Shown: positions 19,207-45,275 of the stretch, piece by piece | Numbering within the stretch: position 1 is the first letter of the stretch | Layout: each line of letters begins with the position of its first letter | Source: Thermincola carboxydiphila | Lineage (GTDB): Bacteria > Bacillota > Thermincolia > Thermincolales > UBA2595 | Assembly (NCBI GenBank): GCA_016841725.1 | Contig: JAENYP010000013.1 | Coordinates: 1-64,000, forward strand | Direction of reading: 5' to 3' | Length of the DNA: 64,000 bases | Translations under genes and position numbers: made by a program | Notes under the pieces: generated by a model | Seen by the model: only the letters and a program-made list of their open reading frames with translations | Told to the model about the DNA's origin: nothing | The model's database searches: none

Positions 19207-22200
19207 TTAAAAGCTTTTCGGATAATCATGGGTCTTCCAACTATGACAATCGTTACACCATGGCTCTTGATATGTTCCCCTTACTTCTCCATACCATTGT
19301 TTATTATGGCCATGGCACCTGAAACAGTTGGAAATATGAGACTCCTCCAGTACCATAGGAAAATCGTGAGACTCTGGACCCCATTCCGTTTCTATATCCC
19401 CCGACCAGCCATTGTGACACTCTAAACAGGATTCATGCCAATCATTTATTATATCCCCAGCATGACAGGATTGACAAAAAGGTTTAGCGCCGGTGCCATT
19501 AGCCTGGATTACCGATATCCCGCTGTTTCCGTTTACGGTTTCACGCAAGTGGTAAACATTTGCGCTCCCATGGGGGTCATGACAGTCGTCACAGGCTAGC
19601 CGGCTGCTCCCCTTTAAATACGGGTCCAGTAAATGGCTTGTAGTGCCTGTGTAATCGCCATGGTAGTCATTGACAGCGCTTGTCGGTATATCGGCCGGTG
19701 GTGGTGTTCCCATTAGGACACCGGAGGGAGCCACATTATCATGACACTTGTTACAGAAGCCGGAGTTCTCTTTATTTCTGAAGATTGTAACTGTACTATC
19801 TGTACTATATTGACCCGAACCCAACAGCTGCCAGGACTGGGTAGTGAAATTCCATATATAAACTGCTGTCTCATGGTTCGGTGTAGGTTCACCATGCCCT
19901 ACCCATTTGACCGATAAGCGGTTTATTGAAGACAGTGGTTCATCAAACAGGAACTTGTAAAGTTGATAGTTATAAGAACCTTCAGATGAAGCCCGGTCTG
20001 TTGACCACTTGTTTCCATCGAGGGATGAAGCACTGTCCTTCTGAGTACTGCCGGCGGGGAACCCGGGGTTTTCGAAATCAGGCATTGTACTGCTTTCCCA
20101 TGCTTCAGAGGTGGGAGAATTGGGATAATAAGGTATTCCGCCCTCTGAATAGACACCAATGCCAACAGTCAGATAGTTGGTATTTAGTGAATAGTGGTCA
20201 GGCAGTGCTACAGGCTCTTTTGGTTCAACTCCCTTTAAAGTCCGGTAACTGGCCACCTTTAACGGTGTCTCTGTCACCGGCTCCAAATTCGCAATTAGGG
20301 TTTTTGCAAATCGTGCCAAGGCCTTCAAAGATTGTACGAGTTTATCCCATGATTTTACAATCTTCTGCCAAAGACTTAACTCATTACTATGTTCCCTTGT
20401 GTTCCATTCTTTATTATATTTTTTCAGTTCAGCCGGATATTCACCAAGTGAATCCGGAAGCTGGGACATATCCATACCCCGAAATGGCAGGGGTTGGGCC
20501 TTTGCCAGCTCATATTCTTTATAATAAACCCAAGGTTTGAGGACAAAGGACCTGGTCATCCCAGGTGCCGGAGGCGGCAGGGCTTTGAAGCTGACGGTGA
20601 GTTCGTCACCGGTATCCATGACTGCCAGCTTATCATCAACCTCATTCACCAACGGTATAACATCACCATACCTGGTGAACTTACCTTCGTGCAGGATTAC
20701 GATGTCATCCAGTTGATAGTAGTCAAAGTATGGTGCGGGGTACTTGGTCGATTCTGATACGCCATGATAGTCCAGCCTGGCTTCCAGCAGCTCCAGGTCA
20801 GTTATCTTTAACCTGGCCTGTGGTGTTGTATCAACCCCCACGAAATCTATGTGCGGCCGGTGCATTCCCCTTAGCCGGACCATGTATTTCTTAGTTCCCT
20901 TCCCGAATTTTCCGGTGAGGTCAAGAACAGATGTCCTGGTCATACCGTTGATTTGCTTTATAGCTTCACGCTGCCAGGTTCCATCGGGCTGGAGGACCTC
21001 TACAAAATGGCGGGCTTTTTTGGCATCCTTCCGCTCACGGTCTGCCTTTCGCTCCAAATAACCGGTAAATTCAGTCCAGCCGGTAATAACCAGTTTAATT
21101 TCATCTGCGCCGCTTAAATCACCAAGGTCAAAGGTGAACTGGTTATCATCCCCATATGAACCCTTTGCATGCCTGTTATCGACTCTGCTGACTAATTCGG
21201 TGACATCCACCGGGGCCGTAAGTTCCCCTCCGCTGTAGACCGGATTGTTGACATAGCTGGCTTTCTTGACGGGTTTAACATCAGCGCTATAAGAGTAAAC
21301 CTTGATAGGTTGTTTGCCTCTGACAAGATCGTTGATCGTAATCCTGGTGCCCTCAGGATGGTCTACAGCCTGCAGACCTGCATAATCAATGTAGTCAACT
21401 TCATCTCTTTCTGATTTAAGTTTGATGGTATATTGCCCGTCTTTTTCCTGGAGTTTATTCCACGGAATGGGCACAGGGAGGTTCGGGAAGATTTCGGCAA
21501 ACTTACCCGGCCTGACTTCAAGCCCTACGTCTGACCCCGCAAGGTCAGTGATGAACTCATACTTCTTTCCGTTCCAGACATAAAGATTGGGGCAGGATGC
21601 ACCTCCGTCGTGGTCAAAGTAAGCCGTGAGCGAATAGGGGCCTTCAGCGCCATATATGTCCTTTGCCTGAACCTTCCATTCATACGTATTAAGATAAAGA
21701 TTTGTAACACTGGTATCCCAAAAGGTCTGGCCCACAGGCAGCCAGCCGGAATTAAATGTCTGGTAAACAGCCTGATTGGTTACTGAAACACGATACCTTA
21801 ACTGGTCCTCGTCAGGGTCCAAAGCCGGATCCCATTCCAAACGAACCGCCTCTGTCTCAATACCCACCGGCAGGGGCTGCGGGACGTTTCGTAAACTGGA
21901 TGGGGCTCCCGGCGGAGCTGAAAGTTTGATTATCCCGCTGTCTGAATAAGCAGTATTTCCGAGAGGATCAGCAGACTTAGCCCGGTAGTAATAATTCACA
22001 CCGATTTCTAAATTGCTTAAAGTAACAGAATGTGATGCCCCTGTTGCTGACCCGTATAAAGCGCTGGAATTACCTTCTGTATAAACATATTCACCGACAA
22101 TGGTCCCCCATTCCAGCTGCCTGGTGGACCACTCGTTAGCTGTCCAGGTTATTGCTGCACTGTATGCCGCGTTATTAACAGTATGGGATAAATTGCTTAT

Positions 22201-25200
22201 CACCGGAGGGGTCCCGTCATGCTTGGCTTTTGCCAGTACATACAGCGTTCCATCACTGTAAACATAATCTTTAATTCCTTTGTCCACCCACTGGTCCAGT
22301 ACTGTGTAACGGTTATCCGGGTCTACAGTCTTGTTTGCAGCATCATTCAAATGCGGGTCATGGCAGTTGACACACTGAACCCGGGTTCCCCCGGCATCCT
22401 GTTCTGTGGTGTCTATACTGTGCCGGGCAGTTGCGTTGGGCCCTGCAGTGAATCTGTCCTCAATATCGATACCCATGGCAGAATTAGCCGGGTTACTGTG
22501 GCATCCCAGTCCGTCGCCAAAGCAGCCTGACTCCAGACCTTCCTGCAGCTGTTTTGGGATCACGTTTCCGGCCCCGTCAGCTTTGCCATGCGGGTTATGG
22601 CAGATGCCGCAATAACCGGCAGGAACGGAATGGTCTGTAGCCAGCACTTCCAGTTCTATGTAGTCGGTATTTAGGGAGAAGTGTCCTGCCCCGGCCGGAG
22701 TTTCCTGAGTGACCTCGGTTCTCTTATTTGCACTGTTTTCAGTTACATTCAAATTATTTTCGGAGACATTATTCCCTGTCTTAGAAGCCGGCCCGGCTGC
22801 AGAACTTTTTAATATTAGACCCCATATCTTCTGTAATTTGGCAAACAACTTAGTGATAAAGTGTTTTAGCTTAGTCAGGATACCGGTCTTCCCGGCAGAA
22901 CTGCCGTCAGTATAAAGAGAGTTCATAATTGCCTGTCTTTCAGGGGCAATAACCTTGCCGTTCTCCAGTTTATGTTCCCTTGTGTTCCATTCTTCCACAT
23001 ATGCTCTCAGTTCATCGGGATATTCTCCCAGTGAATCCGGGTATGAAGAAATATCCATGCCCCTAAAGGGCATTGGGTCTACCCTGGCTTCTGACAATTC
23101 CTTGTAATAAGCCCAGGGCTTAAGAACATATGAACGTGTCATACCGGCAGCCGGCAGAGGCAGGGCTTTAAAGGATACTGTAAGTTCGTCCCCGGTATCC
23201 ATTACTACCAGCTTGTCGTTTATTGCTTCAACCAGAGGCAGGACATCACCATACCTGGTAAATTTCCCTTCGTGAATCCATAATCCAAAAGAACGCTTTT
23301 TTTCATAATCAAAATCCGGCGCGGGGTACTTGGTATAACTTGAAGGCACGTCATATTCCAGGATAGCTTCCACCATTTCCAGGTCGGCTGCTTTGGTATC
23401 TGCCTGTTTGGTCGTGTCCACACCGATAAAATCAATGTGCGGACGGTATAATCCCCTAAGCCGCACTATATATTTTGGGGTACCGGCAGGAAACTTCCCT
23501 GTGAGGTCAATAACCGCTGTCTTAGTATAGCCCGGGATGTGCATGATCACTTCACTCTGCCAGGACCCGTCCGGCTGTAAAATTTCCAGGAGCCTGGGGG
23601 CTGTCTTGAGTCCCTCAGCCGCCTTTTCTAGCCGCTCCGCCCTCTCCTCAGAAGTGGCAAACTCTGTCCAGCCTTTAATAACAAGTTTAATTTCTTCAGC
23701 ATGGCTCAAGTCACCGAGGTCCAGTTCATACTGGTTATCATTAAATAATGACCCAATGGTGTGACGGTTATCAATTTCGCTGACCAACTCAGTGACATCA
23801 ACAGGTGAGCTGATTTCACCCCCTGACCAGGTGGGGTTATTTATGTAAGTTGCCCTTTTAACGGGTTTTACCTTTTCACTGTAGGCATATATCTTATACG
23901 GTTCTTTATGCCGGACAAACTCATTCAGGGCTATATTTGTCCCTATGGGATGGTCTACTGCCCACAGGACAAGGCTATCGATATAATCAACTTCATTCTG
24001 TTCATTCTTTATTTTGATAATGTATTTCCCGTCTTTTTCTTTGAGCATCCCTCCGGGGATAGCTACCTGTTCATCGGGAGTGGGACCCAGGTATTCTCCG
24101 GGAGCCTTTTCCAAACCTATATTGGAACCTGCCACTATGTCTGTATTAAAGCGGAATTTTTCTCCATCCCAAGTATATAAAATAGGGCATGACCATGCCA
24201 GAGTCTGAAAATTGCCTGTCGACCATTCAGAAATTGAGCCGTAACTGTCTTTGGACCTTACCCGCCAGTACCAGGTATTCGGCACATCATCTCCAACATG
24301 AGTTACAGTTGTTGACCAATTAGTAGCGCTTGTATCCGGCAATTGCTTGTAAACAGTAGAAAAATCAGATGCTTTACTAATCTGCAAATCGTAAGTTACC
24401 GGGTTTCCGTCAGGGTCAATTACCGCATCCCAGGCAAAATTAATTGTAAAGGTATAATTAGCTTCCTGCTCCTGATTAGCTATCGCATGCAGACTCGGTC
24501 TTCCGCTTTTGGAGACGAAAGAGCCTGTCTGCTGGGCTTCATTGCCTAAGGCATCAGTAGTGCGTATACGGTAGTAATAAGTCTGGCCTGCAGTAAGTCC
24601 TGATAATCTAAGCGAATGCGATTTCACCAGGCTGTCATTGCCAACAGTCGTCCCGTATTCAGTGGTACTGCCATAATCCACAAAGGAGGTGGCCTTTTCG
24701 TCGGTTATCCAGCCTATCTCATTCCAGTATGAAGTTGTATTATACAAAGGGCCCCAGCCGGGCGAAACAGACGGAGGTGTATTATCATGTTTGGCCCTGG
24801 CCAGTATGTAGACATCATTATCGTTGTCCAGGTAGTTTTCGAAACCGGAGGTTATCGTCCATGTCAGGGTGCCCGGATTACCGGGATCACCCAGTTGCGC
24901 GCTTGCTAGTTGTTCCCACTGTTGCTCATTTTTGTTCCATACCAGTACATCGGTTGGATGATTATCCGTAGGTTCTCCGTATCCGGTCCATTGTCCAACC
25001 AGTCGCTTGATATCTGCCAGTACCTGGTTTACGTGAAACTTATACATCTGGTAATTATAATGGTCCTGGGTAGCAGTCAGACCTGTGGACCAGAAAACAG
25101 AATCAGGGCTCTCGATATTACCTGACTGTACTGCTGTAGCCGGGGTGCCCGGAGTTGAAGGGGTCGGTGGCTGCTCTACGGGTCCTGTAGATTCCCAGGC

Positions 25201-26283
25201 CTCAGAGCCATCGTTATTCATGGCATAAGTGGAAGAAAAAGGCATATTCTCGGCACCCGCGCTGCCGTGTGGAGTATTCTCATAAGTATCAATGCCACGA
25301 TAAGAATAATTATCGGGACGGACAACTGAATCGTCATCATGACATGATGTACAAAGAGTATTTCCTTCAGCTCTTCTGTAATAGGAGACACCCGTTTTTC
25401 CATGGGGTTCGTGACAGTTGAGGCAGAGTGCCGCCCCATATCCGGTGCCGCTGTAAGTAGTTGTGGCCACAGTCGAGTTTTCTTTGAAACCATGATACAC
25501 CGCATTAAAAACTGTACTCCCCGAATACCGGCCCTCACCGTCTGTATGACAGCCAAAACAAACGGAGTTGTTATTCCCGTTTACTTGATTTACAGTTCCA
25601 TCAGGGCCGGTTATGGTATTTCTTAAAAGCATATCATAAGGCGAACCATGGGGCTGATGGCAGCGGGCACATTTAATCATGGTCCCCGAGGCAGGCGGGT
25701 CCATATTTATATCATGTGGAGTATAGACAAAATCTGTCAGCATGTCCCCACCGGGAAGACTGCTGTCACTGCCGTGACACGCGCCACATACGGAATTCCC
25801 TGAGGAATAAGCGGCCTCACCTAATGCCAGCAGACTGGCAGTCCCTCCGGCTGATTTCTCATTTGCCAGGTGGGGGTCATGACAGTTGGTGCACTTCTGG
25901 GTCCCTGAAGGCACAGGGTGCAGTGACCCGGCACCTGAATATACCGATGATCCTATAGTTTCCTCCCCAAACTCCCCCCTGATGTTGGGACTTGCGTTGC
26001 TTCCATCATGACACGAATAACAGGTCTCTCTCTGGGTATACCCAGTTAACAGGTACGAGCCAAAGGAACTGTGGGTGGAATGGCATTTTTCACACAGAGA
26101 GTTGGCGTCATAGTTGCCATGCGGATTTGCAGCGGGTTCTGCAGCAGGTTCTGCAGCGGGTTCTGCAGCAGGTTCTGCAGCAGCCTTAAATCCGCCTGTC
26201 AATATATAAAACAGCCCGTATGCTATCAAGGAAAATACGGTTATAATAAGTGTTACTTTCCTTAATTTGCTCATTAGCTTCAA
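19207..26283 (-). CDS. Giant multiheme c-type cytochrome with FN3 domains (paralog 1)
   Basis: 2358 residues from a TTG at 26283 (GGAGGAAGG 8 bp upstream; ATG at 26274 is the alternative). Signal peptide in residues 1-33, then four AEPA repeats. Heme sites: eight CxxCH between residues about 60 and 320 (CEKCH, CYSCH, CTNCH, CGACH, CARCH, CFGCH, CLNCH, CTSCH), two canonical plus one CX6CH (CFGDGLGCH) around 1230-1320, and six at 2178-2355 (CNKCH, CDDCH, CQSCH, CLECH, CFRCH, CNDCH): 16 CxxCH in all. Between them lie FN3-like domains and two copies of a 400-residue module beginning SCP.LY.W.G (about 697 and 1562) and ending in EWNTREH. Doubled-CxxCH cytochromes carry electrons; this one should be exported and lie across or outside the wall. 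No SLH, sortase or C-terminal anchor seen. Paralog lies at 37838-45070. Confidence 0.88.
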   Translation of the reverse strand: MKLMSKLRKVTLIITVFSLIAYGLFYILTGGFKAAAEPAAEPAAEPAAEPAANPHGNYDANSLCEKCHSTHSSFGSYLLTGYTQRETCYSCHDGSNASPNIRGEFGEETIGSSVYSGAGSLHPVPSGTQKCTNCHDPHLANEKSAGGTASLLALGEAAYSSGNSVCGACHGSDSSLPGGDMLTDFVYTPHDINMDPPASGTMIKCARCHQPHGSPYDMLLRNTITGPDGTVNQVNGNNNSVCFGCHTDGEGRYSGSTVFNAVYHGFKENSTVATTTYSGTGYGAALCLNCHEPHGKTGVSYYRRAEGNTLCTSCHDDDSVVRPDNYSYRGIDTYENTPHGSAGAENMPFSSTYAMNNDGSEAWESTGPVEQPPTPSTPGTPATAVQSGNIESPDSVFWSTGLTATQDHYNYQMYKFHVNQVLADIKRLVGQWTGYGEPTDNHPTDVLVWNKNEQQWEQLASAQLGDPGNPGTLTWTITSGFENYLDNDNDVYILARAKHDNTPPSVSPGWGPLYNTTSYWNEIGWITDEKATSFVDYGSTTEYGTTVGNDSLVKSHSLRLSGLTAGQTYYYRIRTTDALGNEAQQTGSFVSKSGRPSLHAIANQEQEANYTFTINFAWDAVIDPDGNPVTYDLQISKASDFSTVYKQLPDTSATNWSTTVTHVGDDVPNTWYWRVRSKDSYGSISEWSTGNFQTLAWSCPILYTWDGEKFRFNTDIVAGSNIGLEKAPGEYLGPTPDEQVAIPGGMLKEKDGKYIIKIKNEQNEVDYIDSLVLWAVDHPIGTNIALNEFVRHKEPYKIYAYSEKVKPVKRATYINNPTWSGGEISSPVDVTELVSEIDNRHTIGSLFNDNQYELDLGDLSHAEEIKLVIKGWTEFATSEERAERLEKAAEGLKTAPRLLEILQPDGSWQSEVIMHIPGYTKTAVIDLTGKFPAGTPKYIVRLRGLYRPHIDFIGVDTTKQADTKAADLEMVEAILEYDVPSSYTKYPAPDFDYEKKRSFGLWIHEGKFTRYGDVLPLVEAINDKLVVMDTGDELTVSFKALPLPAAGMTRSYVLKPWAYYKELSEARVDPMPFRGMDISSYPDSLGEYPDELRAYVEEWNTREHKLENGKVIAPERQAIMNSLYTDGSSAGKTGILTKLKHFITKLFAKLQKIWGLILKSSAAGPASKTGNNVSENNLNVTENSANKRTEVTQETPAGAGHFSLNTDYIELEVLATDHSVPAGYCGICHNPHGKADGAGNVIPKQLQEGLESGCFGDGLGCHSNPANSAMGIDIEDRFTAGPNATARHSIDTTEQDAGGTRVQCVNCHDPHLNDAANKTVDPDNRYTVLDQWVDKGIKDYVYSDGTLYVLAKAKHDGTPPVISNLSHTVNNAAYSAAITWTANEWSTRQLEWGTIVGEYVYTEGNSSALYGSATGASHSVTLSNLEIGVNYYYRAKSADPLGNTAYSDSGIIKLSAPPGAPSSLRNVPQPLPVGIETEAVRLEWDPALDPDEDQLRYRVSVTNQAVYQTFNSGWLPVGQTFWDTSVTNLYLNTYEWKVQAKDIYGAEGPYSLTAYFDHDGGASCPNLYVWNGKKYEFITDLAGSDVGLEVRPGKFAEIFPNLPVPIPWNKLQEKDGQYTIKLKSERDEVDYIDYAGLQAVDHPEGTRITINDLVRGKQPIKVYSYSADVKPVKKASYVNNPVYSGGELTAPVDVTELVSRVDNRHAKGSYGDDNQFTFDLGDLSGADEIKLVITGWTEFTGYLERKADRERKDAKKARHFVEVLQPDGTWQREAIKQINGMTRTSVLDLTGKFGKGTKKYMVRLRGMHRPHIDFVGVDTTPQARLKITDLELLEARLDYHGVSESTKYPAPYFDYYQLDDIVILHEGKFTRYGDVIPLVNEVDDKLAVMDTGDELTVSFKALPPPAPGMTRSFVLKPWVYYKEYELAKAQPLPFRGMDMSQLPDSLGEYPAELKKYNKEWNTREHSNELSLWQKIVKSWDKLVQSLKALARFAKTLIANLEPVTETPLKVASYRTLKGVEPKEPVALPDHYSLNTNYLTVGIGVYSEGGIPYYPNSPTSEAWESSTMPDFENPGFPAGSTQKDSASSLDGNKWSTDRASSEGSYNYQLYKFLFDEPLSSINRLSVKWVGHGEPTPNHETAVYIWNFTTQSWQLLGSGQYSTDSTVTIFRNKENSGFCNKCHDNVAPSGVLMGTPPPADIPTSAVNDYHGDYTGTTSHLLDPYLKGSSRLACDDCHDPHGSANVYHLRETVNGNSGISVIQANGTGAKPFCQSCHAGDIINDWHESCLECHNGWSGDIETEWGPESHDFPMVLEESHISNCFRCHGHNKQWYGEVRGTYQEPWCNDCHSWKTHDYPKSF
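26129..26176 (-). repeat. Four 12-bp tandem repeats encoding AEPA units
   Basis: Four 12-bp units alternate GCAGCGGGTTCT and GCAGCAGGTTCT, so the true unit may be a duplicated 24-mer. They encode the Ala-Glu-Pro-Ala linker just after the signal peptide. The paralog has a single AEPA, so the array expanded here. Confidence 0.85.
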
Positions 26284-27740: not shown

Positions 27741-29165
27741 CTACTGAATGCCAAGGTATTCCAAGGCCCCTTGAGCTGCCTTTTTCCCTACATTGATACA
27801 GTCCGGGACGCCTACTCCCCGGTAGGAGCCGCCGGCCACAAAAAATCCGGGATTGGCTGCGGCCCTGGTCTCAATGGCTGCCACCCTGTCCAGATGGCCG
27901 ATTGTATACTGGGGCATACCCTTGACCCACCGGAAAATTCTGTGCATTACAGGGGCAGCAGTAAGACCGATAATATCCTTCAATTCATCAAGCACCATCT
28001 TTAGCAAGGTTTCATCATCCTGAAACACCAATTCCTGGTTCATGGCCCCGCCGACAAAAGCCCTGATGAGTACATGCTCCTTATCCGGGGTACGGTAGTC
28101 CCACTTGGTTGAGCTGTAAGTTCCGGCCTTGATTTTTCTTTTCTCCGAGATAGGCACGATAAATCCAAAGGCTTCCAGGGATGTGCCTACATCAGAGCGC
28201 CTGAAGGCTAGATTCACAGTAGCCGATGTAGCCTGAGGGATGCCTGCCAGGTTATCTGCCATAGCCTTATCCATATCTTCGACTACTTTGGCTGCCTCAT
28301 GAGCCGGTGCGGTTACGATCACGGCATCGGCAGCAACAGGTTCTATACCGTCTATATGGACCATGTACCCACCGCCGGTTTTCTGCTCAATGTGGGTGAC
28401 GGTTTTTCCGGTAAGAATCTTGTTAGGCTCCAGTTTTGCTGCCATTGTATCGGTCAGCTCTCCCATGCCCCCGATAAAAGTCATAAAAAAGGTTTTTTTC
28501 GGCTTTCCGGGTTCCGGCGGCTTGGGTTTTGGCATCTTTCCACGAGCTGCCAGCATTGCCCTGAGAAGGCTTCCATGATTCTGTTCCATCTGAATAAACC
28601 TGGGGAAGGTAGCCTTAAGGCTCATCTTGTCAGGATCCCCGGCATGGATGCCCCCGATTAGAGGTTCTGCTATTTTATCCAGCGCCTCCTTACCCAGCCG
28701 GCGGTTAACAAAACTGCCCAGGGTTTCATCCCCATCTGTCTGTTTTTTGGGGATAAAGAAGTCAAAGGCCATACGTATTTTACCTGGCCAGGAGATTAAA
28801 GGACTGAGGGCAAAAGGCACCAGCTTGGTGGGTACAAGTCCCATCAGCCCATCGGGAAGCCTATTCAACCTTTTATTGGCAAAAACATAAGTCCGCTTGC
28901 TGGCCTCATTACTGCCCATTATGCGGTCCTCTATTCCTGTATCCCTGGCCATGTCGAAGCAGCCGGGTTTGTCTGCCAGGAAACAGTCAGGCCCGCCTTC
29001 CACCGTATATCCGTCAATCTGCTCGGTCCAGATTTTTCCGCCCAGGCGATTATCTTTTTCAACAAGGAGATAATCCACCTTTTCTCCGGACTCCAGCGCC
29101 TTTTGCAGCATATATGCTGCCGACAGTCCGGTGATTCCGCCACCGATTACAACTACCTTTTTCAT
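27741..29165 (-). CDS. hemY: Protoporphyrinogen / coproporphyrinogen III oxidase (FAD)
   Basis: 474 residues from the ATG at 29165. The FAD-binding Rossmann motif GGGITGLSAAYML lies at the N-terminus, followed by DNRLGGKI (about residue 40), and the C-terminal FAD contact FVAGGSYRGVGVPDCI. This is the HemY/CgoX branch, an oxygen- or acceptor-dependent oxidase. In Firmicutes it usually makes coproporphyrin III in the coproporphyrin-dependent heme route. It ends the hemE-hemH-hemY operon, 19 bp after hemH. No hemQ (chdC) is in the window. The intact length matches the family. Confidence 0.93.
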   Translation of the reverse strand: MKKVVVIGGGITGLSAAYMLQKALESGEKVDYLLVEKDNRLGGKIWTEQIDGYTVEGGPDCFLADKPGCFDMARDTGIEDRIMGSNEASKRTYVFANKRLNRLPDGLMGLVPTKLVPFALSPLISWPGKIRMAFDFFIPKKQTDGDETLGSFVNRRLGKEALDKIAEPLIGGIHAGDPDKMSLKATFPRFIQMEQNHGSLLRAMLAARGKMPKPKPPEPGKPKKTFFMTFIGGMGELTDTMAAKLEPNKILTGKTVTHIEQKTGGGYMVHIDGIEPVAADAVIVTAPAHEAAKVVEDMDKAMADNLAGIPQATSATVNLAFRRSDVGTSLEAFGFIVPISEKRKIKAGTYSSTKWDYRTPDKEHVLIRAFVGGAMNQELVFQDDETLLKMVLDELKDIIGLTAAPVMHRIFRWVKGMPQYTIGHLDRVAAIETRAAANPGFFVAGGSYRGVGVPDCINVGKKAAQGALEYLGIQ

Positions 29166-29184
29166 GCTCAACCACCCCGTTTTC

Positions 29185-30144
29185 TTAGTGATGTTCTTTG
29201 CTGTCCAACTCCCTCAACACTATATCTGCCATAGCCCTGATGAAGAGTTCTGCGGTGTTCAGCGCAGCTGACCTGTGGAAATTAAGCCCAATGGATTGGG
29301 CGTGGTTTTTCTGGGCTATGTCAATATCATAAAGGGTCTCAATGTGGTCGGAAACAAACCCGATAGGTACTACCATGACATCCCTGGCCCCATTTTCCCG
29401 GAGATGTTCCATGACATCTTCCACCATGGGGCCCAGCCATTCTCCGCGACCGCCTCCCTTGCTTTGGTATGCAGTTTGCCAATTGCTGAGATGAAGCTTC
29501 TCCACAACCTGCTTCACTGCGGAATCAAACTGAGCGACATAGGGATCGCCGCCTCTGATATATTCTACAGGCAGTGAATGGGCGCTGAAGATGACCGGAA
29601 TATCTGCCCTTTGCTCTTCGGCGAAGCGTTCCAGACCCTGAATAACCCTCTCGGCAGCTGCATCTATAAACAGCCTGTTGGCGTACAGCGGCCCTGCCAC
29701 CACGGTATCCGGAAACCTTGCTCCCTCCGGCAGGCTGCTTTTGATTTCGGAAATTGCCTTGTCCAGTTCATCTTGGTAGGCGCCGGTACTGACTTTTGAG
29801 AAAAAAGGTGCAAGGCTGACCGCAATAATCTTCTCTACTCCGCTGTCAATCAATTCTGCAAGGCCTTCCCTGATAAAGGGATGCCAATGACACATACCAA
29901 CTGTCACCCGGTAATTTTTGTTGCCGGCACAGAGGTATTTCTCCAGTCCCCTGGCCTGTTCCCGGGTTATTTCAGGTAAAGGAGAATGACCACCAATCAA
30001 CCGGTAACGGGCTTTGACCTTTTCCACCAGCTCTGGCGGAGGCGTTCTGCCTCCCATTAAGTTTTTCATAAACGGCTCAATAGCTTCCGGGGCATCCGGG
30101 CCCCCGAAAGCCATGAGCAGCACACCTATGGGACTGACACTCAA
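29185..30144 (-). CDS. hemH: Ferrochelatase (coproporphyrin/protoporphyrin)
   Basis: 319 residues from a TTG start, with AAGGAGG 7 bp before it. Inserts Fe2+ into the porphyrin ring. The catalytic His lies in IFSAHSLP (about residue 183) and the conserved acidic residues in GFVSDHIETLYDID (about residue 265). LMAFGGPD at the N-terminus is the family opening. Middle gene of hemE-H-Y, 25 bp after hemE. In the CPD pathway this enzyme is CpfC. Confidence 0.95.
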   Translation of the reverse strand: MSVSPIGVLLMAFGGPDAPEAIEPFMKNLMGGRTPPPELVEKVKARYRLIGGHSPLPEITREQARGLEKYLCAGNKNYRVTVGMCHWHPFIREGLAELIDSGVEKIIAVSLAPFFSKVSTGAYQDELDKAISEIKSSLPEGARFPDTVVAGPLYANRLFIDAAAERVIQGLERFAEEQRADIPVIFSAHSLPVEYIRGGDPYVAQFDSAVKQVVEKLHLSNWQTAYQSKGGGRGEWLGPMVEDVMEHLRENGARDVMVVPIGFVSDHIETLYDIDIAQKNHAQSIGLNFHRSAALNTAELFIRAMADIVLRELDSKEHH

Positions 30145-30169: not shown

Positions 30170-31201
30170 TTAACGGCGGCTGTACTTATGGACTGCCTCC
30201 ACAAGGGCAATAGCATGTTCAACAGGAGTTTCCTTATTTATTCCATGGCCCAGGTTAAATATATGTCCGGGTCTGTTACCGGCCATATCAAGTATCTTCC
30301 TGACCTTTTCTTCAATTACGCTGGGAGGGGCAAACAGTGTAAAGGGGTCAAGATTCCCCTGTACTCCCCGGTCATAACCCACCCGTTTCCAGGCATCATC
30401 AAGGTTTATTCTCCAGTCAAGGCCAATCACATCCCCGCCTGCTGCAGCAACCAGTTCCAGCATTGAGGAGGCATTGTTGGCAAAATGAATTACCGGAACT
30501 CCCTCATCCCGCAGTCCGTCAAGGACATATTTTGAATGTGGCAGCACATACTGCTCATAATCATCCGGTGAAAGCGCCCCTACCCATGAATCAAACATCT
30601 GTACAGCCTGAGCCCCTGCCTTTATCTGGGCTTTGAGATACTTCAGCAGGACTTCCGAGATTTTTTTCATCAGGGAGTCCCATACATCAGGAGCCTGCCA
30701 CATCATTGACTTGCAGTTTTTGTAGTCCTTGGAACCGCCGCCCTCGATGATGTAGCTGGCTATAGTAAACGGCGCTCCCGAAAAACCGATCAGGGGGACC
30801 CTTCCCTCAAGTTCCTTACGAATTAAGCGTATGGCATCCAAAACGTATGGAGTTGCCTCTTCAGCCTCAAGAATGCGAATCTTATCGACATCATCTTTAG
30901 TCCTGACAGGATTGGAAATCACCGGCCCTTCGTTTTTGGCAAAAGCCAGTTCAATTCCCATCCCCTCAAGGGGCAGCAGAATATCCGCAAATAATATTGC
31001 GGCATCCACACCCAGCCTGTTTACCGGCTGCAGGGTAACTTCAGCAGCCAGGTCCGGTGTTTTGCACATCGTCAGAAAGTCATATTTCCGTCTAATCTCC
31101 ATATATTCAGGCAGATAGCGCCCAGCCTGCCTCATCAGCCAAACCGGAGTACAATCAACCTCTTCTCTCCTGCACGCCTTTAAAAATCGGTCATTCTGCA
31201 T
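30170..31201 (-). CDS. hemE: Uroporphyrinogen decarboxylase
   Basis: 343 residues with GAGGAGG before the ATG. It decarboxylates uroporphyrinogen III to coproporphyrinogen III. The signature PVWLMRQAGRYLPEY is at residues 20-34, with the catalytic Asp in FADILLPLEGMG, and the second signature GFSGAPFTIASY (about residue 138). First enzyme gene of the hem operon, starting 70 bp after the marR gene in the same direction, so the four genes probably form one transcription unit. Confidence 0.96.
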   Translation of the reverse strand: MQNDRFLKACRREEVDCTPVWLMRQAGRYLPEYMEIRRKYDFLTMCKTPDLAAEVTLQPVNRLGVDAAILFADILLPLEGMGIELAFAKNEGPVISNPVRTKDDVDKIRILEAEEATPYVLDAIRLIRKELEGRVPLIGFSGAPFTIASYIIEGGGSKDYKNCKSMMWQAPDVWDSLMKKISEVLLKYLKAQIKAGAQAVQMFDSWVGALSPDDYEQYVLPHSKYVLDGLRDEGVPVIHFANNASSMLELVAAAGGDVIGLDWRINLDDAWKRVGYDRGVQGNLDPFTLFAPPSVIEEKVRKILDMAGNRPGHIFNLGHGINKETPVEHAIALVEAVHKYSRR

Positions 31202-31271: not shown

Positions 31272-31685
31272 TTATTCCTCAGCCAGGGATTTAAGCAGCA
31301 GCTTTATTCCCCTGACAATGGTTTCCTGTTCTTCCGGAGACAATCTCTCAAACATCTCTTCAATAACTCTGTCCCTGCGCCTGCCAAGTGTTTCCATAAA
31401 CTTTCTGCCTTCGGAAGTCAGCTCCAGCCAAAAAACCCGCCTGTCTTGTTCATCCTGTCTCTTTACTATCCAGCCTTTAATCTCCATCCTCCGGAGAAGT
31501 CTGGCAGCAGCAGGCAGCTTACTGTTGATATGGTTTGATATTTCCCCTACAGTTACGGACCCGCGGCCAATTATGCGCAGGACCCGAAACTGCTGTGCGG
31601 TAATATCAGCATCCCCGTAAATCTTAGGTCCCATATAAACCATTACCTGGGGGAAAAGTTCGCTGAATTCCTGATATGGATACAT
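31272..31685 (-). CDS. MarR-family transcriptional regulator
   Basis: 137 residues with a GCAGGTGAAATAA site. Winged HTH in the centre: TAQQFRVLRIIGR (helices), VGEISNHINSKLPAAARLLRRME (recognition helix region) and a wing around KRQDEQDRRVFWLELT. MarR proteins are dimers that bind inverted repeats and respond to small ligands. It lies just before hemE on the same strand, and its own upstream region carries eight 17-bp operator-like repeats, suggesting it senses heme, a porphyrin or a redox ligand to control heme synthesis; that ligand is inferred. Confidence 0.88.
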   Translation of the reverse strand: MYPYQEFSELFPQVMVYMGPKIYGDADITAQQFRVLRIIGRGSVTVGEISNHINSKLPAAARLLRRMEIKGWIVKRQDEQDRRVFWLELTSEGRKFMETLGRRRDRVIEEMFERLSPEEQETIVRGIKLLLKSLAEE

Positions 31686-31736
31686 TTATTTCACCTGCTT
31701 CATCATTTTGGTGACTAAAAAAACCTACCCATGTTA

Positions 31737-31872
31737 ATATGTTACTAATGTAAACATGTTACCAGTGTAAATATATTACTGATGTAAACATGTTACCAAT
31801 GTAAACATATTACCGATGTAAACATGTTACCAATGTAAACATATTACCAATGTAAACTGTTTACGTCTGTAA
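31737..31872. repeat. Array of eight 17-bp repeats upstream of marR-hemEHY
   Basis: Eight contiguous 17-bp units, consensus ACATGTTACCAATGTAA, the last one degenerate. Every unit contains TTAC-N4-GTAA, so the array alternates TTAC and GTAA half-sites in a constant rhythm. No spacers separate units, ruling out CRISPR. Lying 50 bp upstream of the marR start, it looks like a cluster of MarR-dimer operators; 17 bp is about 1.6 helical turns, so neighbouring dimers would sit on different faces. Confidence 0.85.
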
Positions 31873-31914
31873 ATAATTATACCAACCAAACCTGCAGAAA
31901 TCAATAATAATGTT

Positions 31915-33234
31915 TTACATGTGTAAAGATTTTTTCTGCCACGCATGGTGAGCCTTCTTCATTTCCAGATGCATGCCAATTTCCTTCATAAAACTGAGCA
32001 AATGGGTTGCCGGGAAACCTTTCTGAGGTATCCTGCAAATTCTCTTAGCCACCCTTCTCAAGCTGTAAAGCTCGCGGCGCAGCCGGTGGTATTCCTCTTC
32101 CCGTCTGAACACCGACATTTTGGGATCAGGATGTTCAAATACAGCATTGATACCGGTGTAATGCTCCCATCCCTGTCCCGGCAGCAGATAATCCCGGTAT
32201 TCTTCAAAAAGTTCGGTCCCGGGAAGAGGCATCAGCAGAATAGGATGGATACCTACATTCAGGGAGTCGGCAATCTCCAGAGTTCTTTTAAAGCTTTCAA
32301 TGTCATCATACCTGCCGCCCACTACTACAAAAAGGACAACATATATGCCATGGCTCTGGATACGCTTGATAGCTTCAACCCTGGCTGTGCCCTGCTTCCC
32401 TGCCGCCCCAAAGTGTCTCAGCCCGGCTTCAGAATTGCTCTCCCACCCGGCCATTACTGAAAAAAGCCCGCTTCTCCCTGCTGCAGCAAGTAAGCGGTCC
32501 CCGTCATTTCCCTGAACTGTTTTCAAATCTCCAAATCCATACCAGCGCTTTTTGGGGACCTGTGCTAATTCCTCAAACAACTGCAAATTTCTCTTAATGT
32601 CCCCACCCCAGATATTGTCATCACCGTTAAACCATATCTTACCCGCACGTGATTCTATCTCTGCAGCAACTTCATGGACCGGGCGACAGCGTATTGATTT
32701 ACCGTAAACGCCTGGTACGCTGCAAAACCTGCAGCTGTATGGGCAGCCCCTCATGGTAAAAAAAGCCCGGAACCGGTAGTCCCTTTTAAGGTCACTGTCA
32801 TAGGGAACAGGAATACCATCCAGCGGCATTTTCCGGCCCCGGTAAATACCTTTGAGTTTTCCTGCTTTGGCATCAGCCAATAACTCCGGCCATACCGACT
32901 CCGCCTCTCCGATGACCACAGCATCGGCATGACCCGCTGCCTCTCCGGGAAGAATCGTGGGATGAATCCCTCCCATCACCACGCGAAGCCCCCGCAGGCG
33001 GCACTCATCAGCAAAACGGTATGCCCAGGAAGCAGTGACTGTCATCGTGCTGACAGCTACAAGGTCGGTGTTCAGTTCTGCCGGATTAACCGGGGTCTTA
33101 TTGGCATCAATCAGCTCAACTTCAGCTGACGGGTCAGCCTGAAGGGTGAGGGCTGCCAGGTATTCCAGTATTGGCGGCAGTACCGGAGACCGTTCAGAAA
33201 AAGGATACCTGGGAAATATTATGGTTATTTTCAT
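31915..33234 (-). CDS. B12-binding-domain radical SAM protein
   Basis: 439 residues from the ATG at 33234, which overlaps the luxE-like stop (ATGA). N-terminal cobalamin-binding-like Rossmann domain (VMGGIHPTILPGEA, then AVVIGEAESVWPELL), without a clear DxHxxG ligand. The radical SAM cysteines are in MRGCPYSCRFCSVPG (about residue 170), and an iron-sulfur-supporting VVGGRYDD segment follows. The C-terminus is basic and helical. Substrate is unknown; class B radical SAM enzymes include methyltransferases. Its translational coupling to an acyl-protein synthetase suggests a shared pathway. Confidence 0.85.
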   Translation of the reverse strand: MKITIIFPRYPFSERSPVLPPILEYLAALTLQADPSAEVELIDANKTPVNPAELNTDLVAVSTMTVTASWAYRFADECRLRGLRVVMGGIHPTILPGEAAGHADAVVIGEAESVWPELLADAKAGKLKGIYRGRKMPLDGIPVPYDSDLKRDYRFRAFFTMRGCPYSCRFCSVPGVYGKSIRCRPVHEVAAEIESRAGKIWFNGDDNIWGGDIKRNLQLFEELAQVPKKRWYGFGDLKTVQGNDGDRLLAAAGRSGLFSVMAGWESNSEAGLRHFGAAGKQGTARVEAIKRIQSHGIYVVLFVVVGGRYDDIESFKRTLEIADSLNVGIHPILLMPLPGTELFEEYRDYLLPGQGWEHYTGINAVFEHPDPKMSVFRREEEYHRLRRELYSLRRVAKRICRIPQKGFPATHLLSFMKEIGMHLEMKKAHHAWQKKSLHM

Positions 33235-34493
33235 TGCTTTATCATCCTGTCGGCCACTGTGGAGCATGGGTGGCCCTGTTTCATCATCCCATCGGCCACT
33301 GTTGAGCATGGGCTCCCTTGTTTCATCATCCCATCGGCCACCGTTGAACAGGGATGCCCGCCGCCGGTGCCCAGGATCCAGTCTTTAAGTGTTCCCCCGG
33401 GAAGTTGGAGATCATACCCCGGGACGTTTGCGGAACGCCCCAGTATTTCAAACCCCCGGTCTGTTTCGTAACCTATATTGTCAGTCTGCACAGCCAAAAC
33501 GGTTGCCCTGTTGGTCAGGTCATAATGTCTGATAAGGCCCAGTTCCCCTTTAGGCATGTGTTGACCGGTCCTGATTCCCACAACTGTTGTCCTGGTCCAC
33601 GGCAGGTCACATTTATAGCGTTCCCCTGCGGTTATCCCGCTCAGGTGGTCCCGGAGTACATTATCAAAATAATTTGTCCCACTCTCACCCATGCCCAGGG
33701 TATTTACACAGAAGTGTGCGGGAATTCCCAACAGGTAATTGACCACCTCATAAAACCGCTCCCGGGAACACTCGCCAAAAGTGCCCTGATAGCCGCCGCC
33801 GTCACATACCCGGCTTCCGGGGGGCAATTTAAAGTTAATTCCCCGTTCACAACACTGGTTGTAAAAAAACACAAATCCTGAAGTAGCCCCCATCAGGCAT
33901 ACAGGGTCGCCCTTTTCCACTGCCTCATTGAGGTCTGCTATCAGTTCAGATACTTCCAGACCATTGGGCGTAATGTAGTACTTACTGTCCGCAGTACCAA
34001 ATTCATTTTTTGCCTGTTCCAGCCCATAAGCCATGGGCATACCCGGAGCTGCCTTGGGAGACGGCACCAAAAGCATTATGCGCATCCGCTCCACATCAGG
34101 AAAGACGAACTCCTTGGTGAGCATGTAATTGCAGCGTTTAATCATTTCGAGGCTGTTTTTATCCCTGTATATCTTGCCTCTGGCATGAGGATCCGTAGTA
34201 CCGCTGGTCAAAAGAGAAAGTTCGGTCTCAGAAAGAGGAAATGATGCAATCACGGTTTCTTTAAATGCATTTGTAGGCAGTGGTGGTATCTCTGACCAGT
34301 GAGTAACGCCCCCAGGGCTAACCCCCTTGGAGCGGCACAGGTTTTGATATATTTGGTTTTCATAATACTGATGATTAAATTCCTTTAATGCCAGATTATT
34401 AAACGTCTCTTCATCATGATAGCTGATACCCTTTTCTATATAGGCAAGAATCTCTCTGTCCAGTTCTTCTCTGGCCACAGGATTTTTTTCCAT
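33231..34493 (-). CDS. LuxE-type acyl-protein synthetase family protein
   Basis: 420 residues. Shows the LuxE/acyl-activating features LLTSGTTDPHARGK (phosphate-binding P-loop of ANL enzymes, about residue 95), FVFFYNQCCERG, DGGGYQGTFGECSRERF (about 240) and TDNIGYETDRGFEILGR near the C-terminus. LuxE activates fatty acids as acyl-AMP and loads them onto a cysteine. No luxC or luxD neighbour. The last 42 residues are three copies of a 14-residue repeat (see below). It starts 15 bp after the ccsA stop, so it is part of the ccs operon. Confidence 0.82.
   Translation of the reverse strand: MEKNPVAREELDREILAYIEKGISYHDEETFNNLALKEFNHQYYENQIYQNLCRSKGVSPGGVTHWSEIPPLPTNAFKETVIASFPLSETELSLLTSGTTDPHARGKIYRDKNSLEMIKRCNYMLTKEFVFPDVERMRIMLLVPSPKAAPGMPMAYGLEQAKNEFGTADSKYYITPNGLEVSELIADLNEAVEKGDPVCLMGATSGFVFFYNQCCERGINFKLPPGSRVCDGGGYQGTFGECSRERFYEVVNYLLGIPAHFCVNTLGMGESGTNYFDNVLRDHLSGITAGERYKCDLPWTRTTVVGIRTGQHMPKGELGLIRHYDLTNRATVLAVQTDNIGYETDRGFEILGRSANVPGYDLQLPGGTLKDWILGTGGGHPCSTVADGMMKQGSPCSTVADGMMKQGHPCSTVADRMIKQ
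33234..33359 (-). repeat. Three 42-bp tandem repeats at the 3' end of the luxE-like gene
   Basis: Units 33234-33275, 33276-33317 and 33318-33359 are about 85-90% alike and encode PCSTVADGMMKQG-type 14-mers. They lengthen the C-terminus with a Cys-containing repeat of unknown use and end exactly at the stop/start overlap with the next gene. Confidence 0.85.
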
Positions 34494-37837: not shown

Positions 37838-40800
37838 TTAAAAGGCCCTGACCGGCTGACCAAGGTAGCAGTGGTCACACCCTGAACTATGTGCCGGATA
37901 GGTAGCGCCATGATAATGACAGCTGGCACAGGCCCTGCCAAAATCATCTGCCATCGGCGGAGTACTGTCCCCATGGTCCTCCCGGTGACACCCCAGGCAT
38001 CCCTCATGGAAATTATACAGGGTTCCGGCATGGCAGCTCTGGCAAAAAGCAAGAAACTCGGTATTATTGGCCAAACCGGTGCCGGATATTTTCCCCGGTG
38101 TCTGCCCATTGGGATTATCCTTCAGGTGATAGAGGCTTTCTGAACCGTGCAGGTCGTGGCAATCATAACACTGCAATGTCGTATTCCCCCGGGTATATGG
38201 GTTTTTTATGGTCCCGTTAACACGCCCGATGCCAAAATCCGCCTGGTAAGTCTGATAACCGCCGGTGCCGCCATGGATATCACCGGTATAGGTAGAGCCA
38301 ATGTTCCTGGTTATCGGACCAAGGTCCACACCCTGGGGTGCCGTACCATCGTGGCACTTATTACAGTATGGCTTCATATCAACATTCTTAGGGATACTGA
38401 TACTGGTTTCAGAACCCATTTTCTGGTTAACAACATCATCCCACTTAGAATAAACAAAGTTCCATACTCCTAAGTTAACATTGTAGCCATCAGAGTTTTC
38501 CCCATAGCCCTTCCAGAAAATGTTGAAACTATACAGGTTTGCCGGGTCCTCATTGATAGCAAACCTAAACATCTGGTAATTGTACTCCCCATCATCCTGG
38601 TTAGGGGTCGGATAATAATCAGTGGTGAAATACTCACTATCATCACTTAGGACTGCAGAGAACTCATCAGATGCCGGGCTGCCTGGCATCGACGGCGTAG
38701 GTTCAGCGCTGCTCTGCCACATGCCAAATCCTGCAGAATTCGCATCATACACACTGATTGCAGTACCTTTGTCTGCCTGTAACTTAATATAGTTTGTATT
38801 TAATGAATAATGTCCCTCAGGTGGCTGCTCCAGAAAATCTTCCGGATAATAATTGGGTTGATATGGTATCTCCTGATAAACCGACTCGGCTGTCCTGACA
38901 TCGGGACCGCCAAATAATCTGGCCCATAGCCCTTGCAGGGAATCCAGGATACCGCTCAGGAAACTCTTGATCCTACCAAGGATGCCGGATTTATCCTCAT
39001 TTGAACGGTATTCAGCGATATCATTGGCATCACCATGAATTCGGGTGTTCCATTCTGCCACGTATTCCTGCAGTTCTCTGGGATATTCCCCCAAAGAATC
39101 CGGCCATTTAGACATATCCATATCCCGGAAAGGCATGGGATAAGTTTTGGCATACTGATATTCCTTATAATACTGCCACGGCTTTAAGACAAAAGTCCTG
39201 GTCATTCCCGGTGCGGGAGGCGGCAGAGCCTTAAAGGTTACCGTAAGCTCATCACCTGTATCCATTGCTACCATCTTATCATCTATTTTCTTGACCAGTG
39301 GCAGTACATCTCCATACCGGGTGAACCTGCCTTCATGAACCAGGGTTTTGACTGTCAAATTATCATAATCGTGATATGGCGATGGGAACTTGGTATATTT
39401 CGCCATCCCGCGAAACTGCAGCTGTGCCGTCAGCGGCTCCAGGCTGGTTTTCTTGGCAATGGAATCAGGAGTAGTATCCACACCCACAAAATCAAAGTGC
39501 GGCCTGTACATGCCCCTAAGCCTGACTACATATTTTGTAGTGCCTGCGGGAAATTTCCCTGTCAAATCAATGGCTACCGGTTTGGTGTAACCGGAAAAGT
39601 GCTTAATTTTTTCAGATTTCCAGGTGCCATCAGGCTGCAGAATTTCTAATAACCTCGCGGCTGGTTTAATCCCCTTTTTAATGTTTTCCACCCGCTGCGC
39701 CCGTTCCCGGGCATCGGCATACTCAGTCCAGCCAATGGCTACCAACTTAATGTTCCTGGCGCCACTTAAATCTCCCAGGTCAAAGATAAACTCATTATCA
39801 TCAAGCAGTGTCCCACTGGCGTGCCGGTTGTCAATTCTGCTTACCTCTGCAGTAATATCAACAGGTTTGGATTTTTGACCACCGTTATATGTGGGATTGT
39901 TAATATAGGTAGCTCTTTTAACGGGTTTAACATCTTTGGCATAAGTATGGATAACCGGCGGGTTGTCCTCCCGCTGAAAATCATTTAAAGCTAATCTGGT
40001 ATCCGTGGGATGGTCTACAGCCTGCAGGACCAGGTTGTCTATAAAATCGACTTCGTCCCGTTCTGTTTTGATTTTAATTGTATATAGACCGTCTTTTTCC
40101 TTCAATTTACCCCACGGAATAATCACCGGCAGGTCCGGAATCGGCACCGAATACTGGCCCGGGGCCTTCTCCAGTCCCACATTGGAACTGGCGAGGTCAG
40201 TAATAAACTCAAACCCTTCCCCATCCCAGGTATACAGGACAGGACATGAGCTGGGCGGCCCGTAATGAGTAATTGATTTTACCGTTGACCAGGCAGATTC
40301 AGTTCCCCAGTTATCCCAGGATTTTACCCTGAAATAATAAGTAATCACCGCATCATAATCACATGATTGGGCAATATCCCAGCTGGTGGTACTTATCCAG
40401 CCGGAATTGCCAACCGTATTGGTAAAATTACTGGTGGTGCTCACCTGCATATAATACTCAACTGTATCACCCGGGTCAGGGTCGTAAACCTCACTCCAGA
40501 CGGCACTTAATGTAAAATTAAATTCATCAGGTGCCGAATCAGTGACAGTCGAGATAGTCGGTACTCCGGGAGATCTGCTTGTCATTATGGTGAAATTTTC
40601 GCTGGTAGTTGTGTTACCCCGTAAGTCCTGTGATTTCAGCCGATAAGTATACTCCGTTCCCGCAACCAGTCCGCTCAGGTGAACGCTGTGAGAAGTTCCC
40701 GGAGAGCTGTTGGTCCCCTCAGAATACGCAAAACCATAAACAGCGTAATTGACAGTATCATTATATTCCACCCACCGGGATGTCTTTTCATTGGTCTGCC

Positions 40801-43800
40801 AGATAACATCAAATGCAGTGCCGGTCGAATTAACAATTGAGGGCCCGGAAGTGATTACCGGAGGAGTACTGTCCAGTACCCGGTCATCTGAAAACACATA
40901 GTTTCCTGACGGGTCAACTGCATAAACCCGGTAATGATAGTTGGTATAAAGCTCCAGTCCGGACAGTCCGGCTGTAAAAGAAGTAGCCAGAAAATTCTTG
41001 TTAACCTGGGTCCCATAAGCAGTGGTAGGACCATATTCCATATAACCCGATGTCTTTTCATTAGTGCTCCAGGCAATGCTGGCAGTGGTTTCATTCATAG
41101 CTGATACATAAGGATTTGTGGCAAATGCCGGTTCCTGTCCGTCATGCCTTGCTCTAATCCGCAGGTAGACCTTCCCGGATTCATCCACATATTCAGGTAT
41201 GTTGCTGGTAAGAGAGTAAATGCTGTACCTGTTATCCGGATCTACCAGCCGGTCTGTGGCTGTATTCAAATGTGGTTCATGGCAATTAAAACAATCCAGC
41301 TTGGTTCCCTGAGCCGTTTGTTCCGCAGGGTCAACACTGTGATGTGACAGCGGATTGGAACTGGCGGTGAACTTATCATACAGGTTTACGCCATGGACGG
41401 AATTGTCCGGGTCACTGTGACATCCCAGCCCCCCGCCGAAGCAGGTGCTGCTCTGCCCCATCTGGAGCTGTTTGGGGAAAGGATTTCCGGAGGTATCAGC
41501 TTTACCGTGAGGGGTATGGCAGTTGCCGCAATAGCCCTCAGAAACCCCCGGGTCAACAGCCCGCACTTCCAGTTCCACATAATCGGTATTCAGTGAATAA
41601 TGATTAACCGGATTAGCAGCAAGTCTCTTTGAATTGGAAGGGATGGCAGAACTCTTATCTGTCGGACGGTCAGTTGTAAAACCGCCTGCAAGGTTGTCCA
41701 GTTTGACTGCAACCCAGTCAAATACCCTCGCAGCCTGTAACTTAAACCTTTGCAGGATACCTGGCTGGCCCCGGTCGTAAGTCCGGATTTCTTTGTTATT
41801 TTGAACGGAATTGTCCCCAGCTTTATGGACTCTGGTATTCCACTCTTTAACGTATTCCTTCAGTTCCTGGGGATATTCCCCCAGAGAATCAGGGTACAGT
41901 GACATGTCCATGTCCCTGAAAGGCATAGGCTCAACCTTGGCCTCCGATAATTCCTTATAATATCCCCAGGGCTTTAAGACAAAGGATCTGGTCATCCCGG
42001 CAGCCGGAGGAGGAAGGGCCTTAAACGATACTGTAAGTTCATCACCTGTATCCATGACTACCAGCTTATCATCAATCTGCCGGACCAGGGGTAGAACGTC
42101 ACCATACCTGGTGAAGCTGCCCTCATGAGTCCAGAGGTTGAAGTTCCTGACATCATAATAATCAAAATATGGAGACGGAAATTTTATGTAGGATGCAGGG
42201 GTGGCATAATTAAGTTCAGCACTGTCCAATCTAAGAGGTGTTACCGTTATATCTGCCTGCGGGGTAGTGTCAACCCCGATAAAATCCAGATGGGGCCGGT
42301 ATAATCCCCTGAGCCTGACCACATATTCTTTGGTACCCTCTGCAAATTTTCCGGTAAGATCGATTACAGCGGTCTTAGTGTACCCTGGGATGTGCTTTAT
42401 TTCTTCAGACTTCCAGGTGCCATCAGTCTGCAGTACCTCTACATAATGCTTTGCAGTTGGGCGGTTTTCTACAGCGGTCTGCACCCTTAGCTCCCTGTCT
42501 GCAGCGGTGGCAAACTCGGTCCAGCCAACCACCACAAGCTTGACTTCCTGAGCATCACTCAGGTCCCCAAGTTCGAGAGTAAATTGATTATCATCAAATA
42601 ACTTGCCGACAGCGTGCCTATTGTCAATCCTGCTGACAAGCTCTGTCACATCTATGGGAGCACCGGCGTCACCACCGCTCCAGGTAGGGTTATTGACATA
42701 AGTGGCTTTTTTTACCGGGTTGAGATTTTTACTGAAAGTGTAAACTTTATATGGTTCCGCTCTCCGGACAAAGTCATTGAGGCCGATGCGGGTGTCTACA
42801 GGATGGTCTACTGCTTCCAGGACCAGGTTATCAATAAAATCTACTTCGTGTTGTTCGTTCTTAATTTTAAGGACATAATACCCGTCTTTTTCTTTAAGAA
42901 GGTCATCCGAAATTGTGACTTGTTCATCCGGATAAGGGGTCTTGTATTTTCCCGGGGACATCTCAAGCCCAACATCTGACCCTGCCACAATATCAGTAAC
43001 ATATTCAAATTCCTCGCCATTCCAGGTATATAAAATCGGGCAGGAGTTGACCCAGGTCGTGAAGCTGTCGGTTGACCAGTCTGATACCGAGCCGTAGCTG
43101 TCTTTGGCCCTCACTCTCCAGTACCAGGTATTGGAAGTATTGACCCCCCCCGAATGGGTTACGGTAGTGGACCAGCTGGTGGAACTGAGATTAGGCTCTT
43201 CTGAATAAGAACTGAAATCTGCAGCCTTGCTGATTTGAATGTCATAGGTTAATGGCTGACTGTCCAGGTCAGGTACACTGTTCCATTCGAGAGTCACATT
43301 GAATTCAAAGACACTGTCCTGTTCCAGATCCCCCTCCGGCGTAAGTACCGGAGAACCACACCGGGCATCAAAAGAACTCGTTTCAACTGTCTCATTACCC
43401 AGCCTGTCCACAGTAGTAATCTTATAATAATATGTTTGTCCGGCCACAAGGTCTGACAGCCTCACTGAATGGGAGGTCCTGTACCCGGCAACAGTAAGGT
43501 GTGTCCCATAAGCAGTTGTTGTGCCGTAATCTACTCTGGTTGTGGCCTCCTCATCTGTAGTCCAGACTATATCAGCCCATTTCGATGTCGTATTGAACCG
43601 GGGCCCCCAGCTTGATACCACTGGGCCTGTCCCGTCATGTTTGGCCCGGGCCAGAATATATATATCATTATTTTCATCAAGATATCTGTCGAAGTCTGAT
43701 GTCCTCAGCCATGTAAATGTCCCGGGGGAACCCAGCTGCTGTGATGCCAGGGCCTCCCAGCCGGGTGTATTTTCATTCCAGATAAACAATTCGGTGGGGT

Positions 43801-45070: not shown

Positions 45071-45275
45071 TAGCCTCCACCACCTGTGGTCTCCCATGAG
45101 ACAGTGTTCTAAACGATTCATCAGAAAGAATATTTTGGTTATATAACACGGGTTATTCTAGTGCCAGTAAGTACTATGGTGCTTAGTATAAATATTCTAC
45201 AATATCGCAATAATTCCTCCTGCAATTGGATGAACCGGCAACTTTTTTACAAATTGTTAACTTTTTCGTTATGTT
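45071..45275 (-). promoter_or_regulatory. Leader region conserved with the first giant cytochrome gene
   Basis: Counterpart of 26284-26480. AATTCCTCCTGCAATTGG (45212-45229) and a TTTTTTAC...GTTAACTTTTT block (45243-45266) keep their order and distance to the start codon (142 versus 139 bp). Both read as AGGAGG-containing sequence on the minus strand, well upstream of the real ribosome site. Confidence 0.55.

Follow-up and report, generated by a model that had tools for sequence, protein, structure and literature searches.

Upstream of the heme-synthesis genes of Thermincola carboxydiphila, eight perfect palindromes follow one another at an exact period of 17 bp, and we estimate at about 75% the probability that these repeats form an operator array through which the neighbouring MarR protein negatively autoregulates the operon marR-hemE-hemH-hemY. 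As the tandem sites are confined to marR promoters and the array has decayed where marR is deleted, MarR is likely to be their binder and to act as an autorepressor. The window, i.e., the whole stretch of DNA analysed, is 64,000 nucleotides long, and the relatives with which it was compared are denoted by G numbers.

Results

The initial annotation had listed eight 17-bp repeat units, and eight perfect TTAC-N4-GTAA palindromes at exact 17-bp spacing were indeed recovered (31742-31753 to 31861-31872). Tandem Repeats Finder reported the array at 31726-31861, with a period of 17, 8.1 copies and 0 indels. A ninth perfect site is isolated at 31915-31926. The whole window contains 9 matches to TTAC-N4-GTAA, as compared to 0.73 expected by chance, and all of them lie within 31742-31926; none of 100 whole-window shuffles had at least nine. 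In the region 31686-31940 (255 bases) the 9 sites compare with a mean of 0.026 and a maximum of 2 in 5,000 dinucleotide shuffles. In G000, the genome with eight units, the tandem pair pattern of TTAC-N4-GTAA occurs at this locus only. One or two operators per promoter are customary for MarR-family autoregulators, if not strictly defining, and the earlier view that the number of sites is unusual for this family was borne out by the 9 perfect sites of G000 and the 3 to 6 of most relatives.

On the coding (minus) strand the array unit reads TTTAC-N4-GTAA. The true unit is the palindrome centred on N4 rather than the GTAA-N5-TTAC arrangement that appears between units, because the latter is absent around the isolated site and around the separate sites in G008. 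Comparison of the seven interior units in G000 shows columns 7, 8, 9, 14 and 17 of 17 to be variable, and TTTAC and GTAA to be invariant. All five variable columns fall in N4 or the linker, with a hypergeometric p of ~0.009 that is mildly biased, the units having been picked by motif match. In the arrays of other genomes the half-sites are likewise invariant, and N4 and the linker differ. Adjacent units are separated by a helical phase difference of 223 degrees. A CRISPR or iteron array was ruled out, as the 17-bp units run head to tail without spacers and are flanked by a radical-SAM gene and marR.

The promoter of marR itself lies between two palindromic predicted operators, O1 and O2, which are conserved in orthologues. 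O1 (TTTACACATGTAAA; 31914..31927, minus strand), an isolated perfect 14-bp site, shares bases with the stop codon of the preceding radical-SAM gene and lies just upstream of the -35 box TTGATT (31899..31904, minus strand), which is aligned in related genomes. A 17-bp spacer separates the latter from the -10 box TATAAT with an extended TG (31876..31881, minus strand). This sigma-A-type TTGATT-17-TATAAT match (31904-31876, minus strand) is the best promoter match and is located between O1 and O2; its score alone is no better than that of shuffles, and its support comes from the placement of TATAAT in 8/8 orthologous promoters. O2 (TTTACAGACGTAAA; 31860..31873, minus strand), a perfect operator and the first unit of the array, lies 2 bp past the -10 box and extends over +1, as transcription would start near 31869. 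Seven more predicted operator units TTTAC-N4-GTAA (31741..31856, minus strand) continue in exact 17-bp register with O2 into the putative transcribed leader, and the array ends in a degenerate, in-register ninth unit (TTAACATGGGTAGG; 31724..31737, minus strand), which has a counterpart in G002. Thus, the array does lie upstream of marR, as annotated initially, but its placement relative to the promoter must be corrected, as it is found on the downstream side, within the leader; O1, the promoter, this leader position and the degenerate unit were all absent from that annotation. In the three members of the genus, a terminator was looked for between the upstream operon and the marR promoter, and none was found. 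In G003, G005 and G007, hairpins followed by T-containing sequence are present upstream of the promoter.

The first gene of the operon, marR (31272..31685, minus strand), encodes a 137-aa regulator of the MarR family, the putative binder of the sites, which matches PF01047 with an E value of 1.6e-12 and 47.6 bits against a cut-off of 24.6. The top PDB matches of its AlphaFold monomer (pLDDT 89.5) all belong to the MarR family; the model fits many MarR structures about equally and singles out no ligand class. In agreement with the earlier description of a MarR gene that leads a heme operon, marR is followed on the same strand by hemE (uroporphyrinogen decarboxylase, URO-D; 30170..31201), hemH (ferrochelatase; 29185..30144) and hemY (a protoporphyrinogen/coproporphyrinogen oxidase-like flavoprotein with an amino-oxidase fold; 27741..29171). 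The gene order hemE-hemH-hemY is that of the Bacillus hemEHY operon, which to our knowledge has neither a leading marR nor an operator array. In the open-access literature we found no report of a MarR regulator joined to hemEHY as here, nor of a MarR protein with a long tandem operator array. Known hemY relatives usually use oxygen, and the electron acceptor of this hemY (27741-29171), which belongs to the heme operon of a probable anaerobe, would be of interest.

Orthologues of the MarR protein, with identities of 57-99%, are present in G000-G003, G005, G007 and G008, which form one family, and in G025 from another family. No further ones were revealed when a MarR profile was run against 249 genomes (E <= 1e-20), and a scan of genome contigs returned six loci, all in genomes already in the comparison set. 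Wherever the contig extends far enough, hemE-hemH-hemY follows the marR orthologue, and marR is the sole DNA-binding gene of the conserved operon. When 398 genomes from the phylum were scanned, tandem sites turned up at the orthologous marR promoter of six genomes, all from a single family. The remaining two matches, outside the family, were dismissed as chance occurrences, both being inside long ORFs (1,276 and 1,075 aa) elsewhere. The gene upstream of the promoter is the radical-SAM gene in the genus and a different one in G003, G005 and G007; therefore, the sites travel with marR and not with its neighbour. The sequence TTTACCCGGGTAAA, present in both G000 and G003, was set aside, as its surroundings are unrelated.

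The initial annotation had named absence from orthologous operons, or lack of conservation in them, as grounds for refutation, and had proposed a comparison of repeat numbers. The array withstood this check and proved to be kept at orthologous marR-hemEHY promoters, with 8 tandem units counted from O2 in G000, 5 in G002, 4 in each of G001 and G007, and 3 in each of G003 and G005 (plus a one-mismatch unit in the latter). G008 has separate sites only (three, 54 and 31 bp apart), and G025, the most distant orthologue, has only degenerate sites at 17-bp steps. O2 is placed 2 bp after TATAAT in 7/8 orthologous promoters and is degenerate in G025. O1 is kept in five genomes, at a distance from O2 of 54 bp in G001, G002 and G008 and of 53 bp in G005, and is absent in G003, G007 and G025. 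As the number of units ranges from 8 to 3 and G008 has separate sites, a high number is not essential. Moreover, the separate sites of G008 and the degenerate ones of G025, together with the lack of O1 in three genomes, indicate that the operon can do without a tandem array.

In G004, the regulator and the array were lost together. Its marR gene is deleted but for the last 19 codons, which are joined directly to an array stub behind a tRNA-Ala gene (L108:2900-3060, contig G004:C103). The stub comprises two units at 17-bp spacing, a perfect one and a damaged one, and the promoter and O2 are lost. However, hemE (86% identical) and hemH are intact, as is hemY as far as the fetched stretch reaches.

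Discussion

That the sites are bound by MarR, as proposed initially, gains support from their linkage to the orthologous marR promoter and from their decay where marR is deleted; no other regulator comes close to MarR as the predicted binder. One MarR dimer would occupy each 14-bp palindrome, TTTAC-N4-GTAA(A). Dimers on O1 and O2 would frame the promoter, and with O2 over the transcription start, RNA polymerase would be blocked. Dimers downstream of O2 could raise the occupancy of O2 through contacts or through DNA-mediated cooperativity between 17-bp neighbours, those on the leader units would form a roadblock, and a ligand would release MarR and thereby open the operon. Because of the 223-degree phase between neighbours, contacts of neighbouring dimers on one face of DNA are not expected; rather than a single-face row, the dimers more probably occupy alternating faces, where they would interdigitate or be coupled by way of the DNA. 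The extra units may help the occupancy of O2, arrest polymerase within the leader, titrate MarR, or have no effect. One idea is that a roadblock could halt transcription running in from the cytochrome and cytochrome-assembly genes upstream. The steep switch and the match to sudden cytochrome demand that were envisaged initially would be conjectural additions to this scheme.

Could the sites serve a regulator other than MarR? Boxes of the CRP/FNR family have 5-bp half-sites with N4 spacing, and the 14-bp TTTAC-N4-GTAAA layout resembles FNR-type boxes. Additionally, lone TTTACA-N2-TGTAAA sites exist elsewhere, for instance in the tsaD-lgt interval, even in G004, which has no marR. However, the tandem sites occur solely beside marR and are shrunken where marR is deleted. 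Moreover, a search of G000 for TTTAC-N4-GTAAA gave 8 perfect single sites versus 5 in the reversed control, mostly inside genes, so that no regulon of a global regulator emerges, we claim no wider regulon, and a regulator of this kind is an unlikely owner of the sites. We consider it very unlikely that MarR activates the operon through O1. This would fit the five genomes in which O1 immediately precedes the -35 box and the precedent of cyanobacterial ChlR, a MarR-family activator of tetrapyrrole genes (PMC4500134), but O2 over +1 in 7/8 genomes with the array downstream is an arrangement typical of repression, three genomes have no O1, and the cysteines discussed for ChlR are absent. Least probable of all is that the repeats act as RNA, with a series of hairpins in the leader governing translation or attenuation. 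The array does lie downstream of the predicted transcription start, and folding of the leader in G000 is stronger than in shuffled versions (z -2.75). Nevertheless, the other genomes gave z values of -1.8, -0.35, -0.67, -0.12, -2.6, -0.06 and -0.57, so the structure is not conserved; O1, which has the same motif, is outside the transcript; such hairpins arise from palindromic DNA anyway; and a terminator sought in the leader was not found.

If MarR is the autorepressor acting at these sites, the role of the variable units can be read in two ways, and we put forward both with equal reserve. MarR dimers might cooperatively coat the array from O2 into the leader, with replication slippage tuning the threshold and steepness of heme synthesis between species. 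This tentative proposal, if true, would make the array an evolvable regulatory dial, of which we found no MarR-family description in the open-access literature. Just as tentatively, O1 and O2 might be the working operators and the downstream units mostly neutral slippage products that bind MarR without an appreciable regulatory effect, in which case the system would be an ordinary autorepressor with a slippage-prone operator. In support of neutrality, unit number differs (8 versus 5) between close relatives with 99% identical MarR proteins, three separate sites suffice in G008, and several genomes have a degenerate last unit. In contrast, the invariance of half-sites in arrays whose N4 and linker vary, and the exact 17-bp register held in six genomes with MarR proteins 71-99% identical, speak against it, as does the fact that unit sequences differ between genera and yet all are good operators by prediction.

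Heme, porphyrins and redox agents, suggested initially as ligands, find no support in the conserved residues of MarR. The window protein has no cysteine, nor have five of its seven relatives, and no cysteine is shared by all eight orthologues compared. Its only histidine, His52, is missing in two of the eight (G005 and G025); the orthologues have no invariant histidine and none conserved in the C-terminal half. Assignment to the heme-sensing MarR class (PefR, HsmR), which calls for a conserved axial histidine, was rejected accordingly, as was assignment to the thiol- or Fe-S-sensing class (OhrR, SarZ, ChlR), which calls for a conserved cysteine. It is possible that heme is bound through residues other than His52.

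Among the closest known systems, PefR of Streptococcus agalactiae and HsmR of Clostridioides difficile are MarR proteins able to sense heme (PMC8044140, PMC11442138). PefR offers a parallel as a MarR-family dimer with an autoregulated heme-related operon and a pseudo-palindromic operator (PMC8044140, PMC11442138). However, it controls efflux and not synthesis, its operator DNA per operon (28-38 bp) holds one pseudo-palindrome and not an array, and its heme is liganded by His114 and the N-terminal amino group, whereas the window protein has no conserved histidine in the C-terminal half. HsmR (PMC11442138; PDB 8zde), whose fold agrees with the modelled window protein at a TM score of 0.63 and 17% identity, controls hsmA; its suggested heme ligand is His50, and the single histidine of the window protein is His52, which two orthologues lack. 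Cyanobacterial ChlR likewise is a MarR-family protein with targets in tetrapyrrole synthesis, but it is an activator thought to sense oxygen by cysteines or an iron-sulfur cluster (PMC4500134), and the window protein has no cysteine. BldC of Streptomyces also forms cooperative multimers on a variable number of tandem repeats (PMC5859096), in its case as MerR-like monomers on 9-bp direct repeats, in contrast to the palindromes at 17-bp spacing and the dimers proposed here.

A tandem operator array of changing length at one native promoter would allow a direct test of how site number shapes a bacterial switch, and nature provides the series: 8, 5, 4 and 3 units, separate sites, and one loss of the regulator. 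The MarR protein is also a candidate regulator of heme synthesis for Thermincola, a Gram-positive bacterium that respires metals such as iron with multiheme cytochromes. Two related giant multiheme cytochrome genes of the window (19207-26283 and 37838-45121; 2,358 and 2,427 aa) flank its heme and cytochrome-assembly genes. At 33231-33347, a 42-bp tandem repeat (2.7 copies) is common to the overlapping ends of a luxE-like gene and the radical-SAM gene and is read in two frames. The TTTACA-N2-TGTAAA palindrome between the tsaD-like and lgt-like genes lies beside several TTATCCACA-type DnaA boxes; it is conserved in G000, G001 and G002 and also in the marR-less G004 (L090:3004, equivalent to G000:C37:4203; L091:3020; L092:3053; L095:3019), and probably belongs to another factor.
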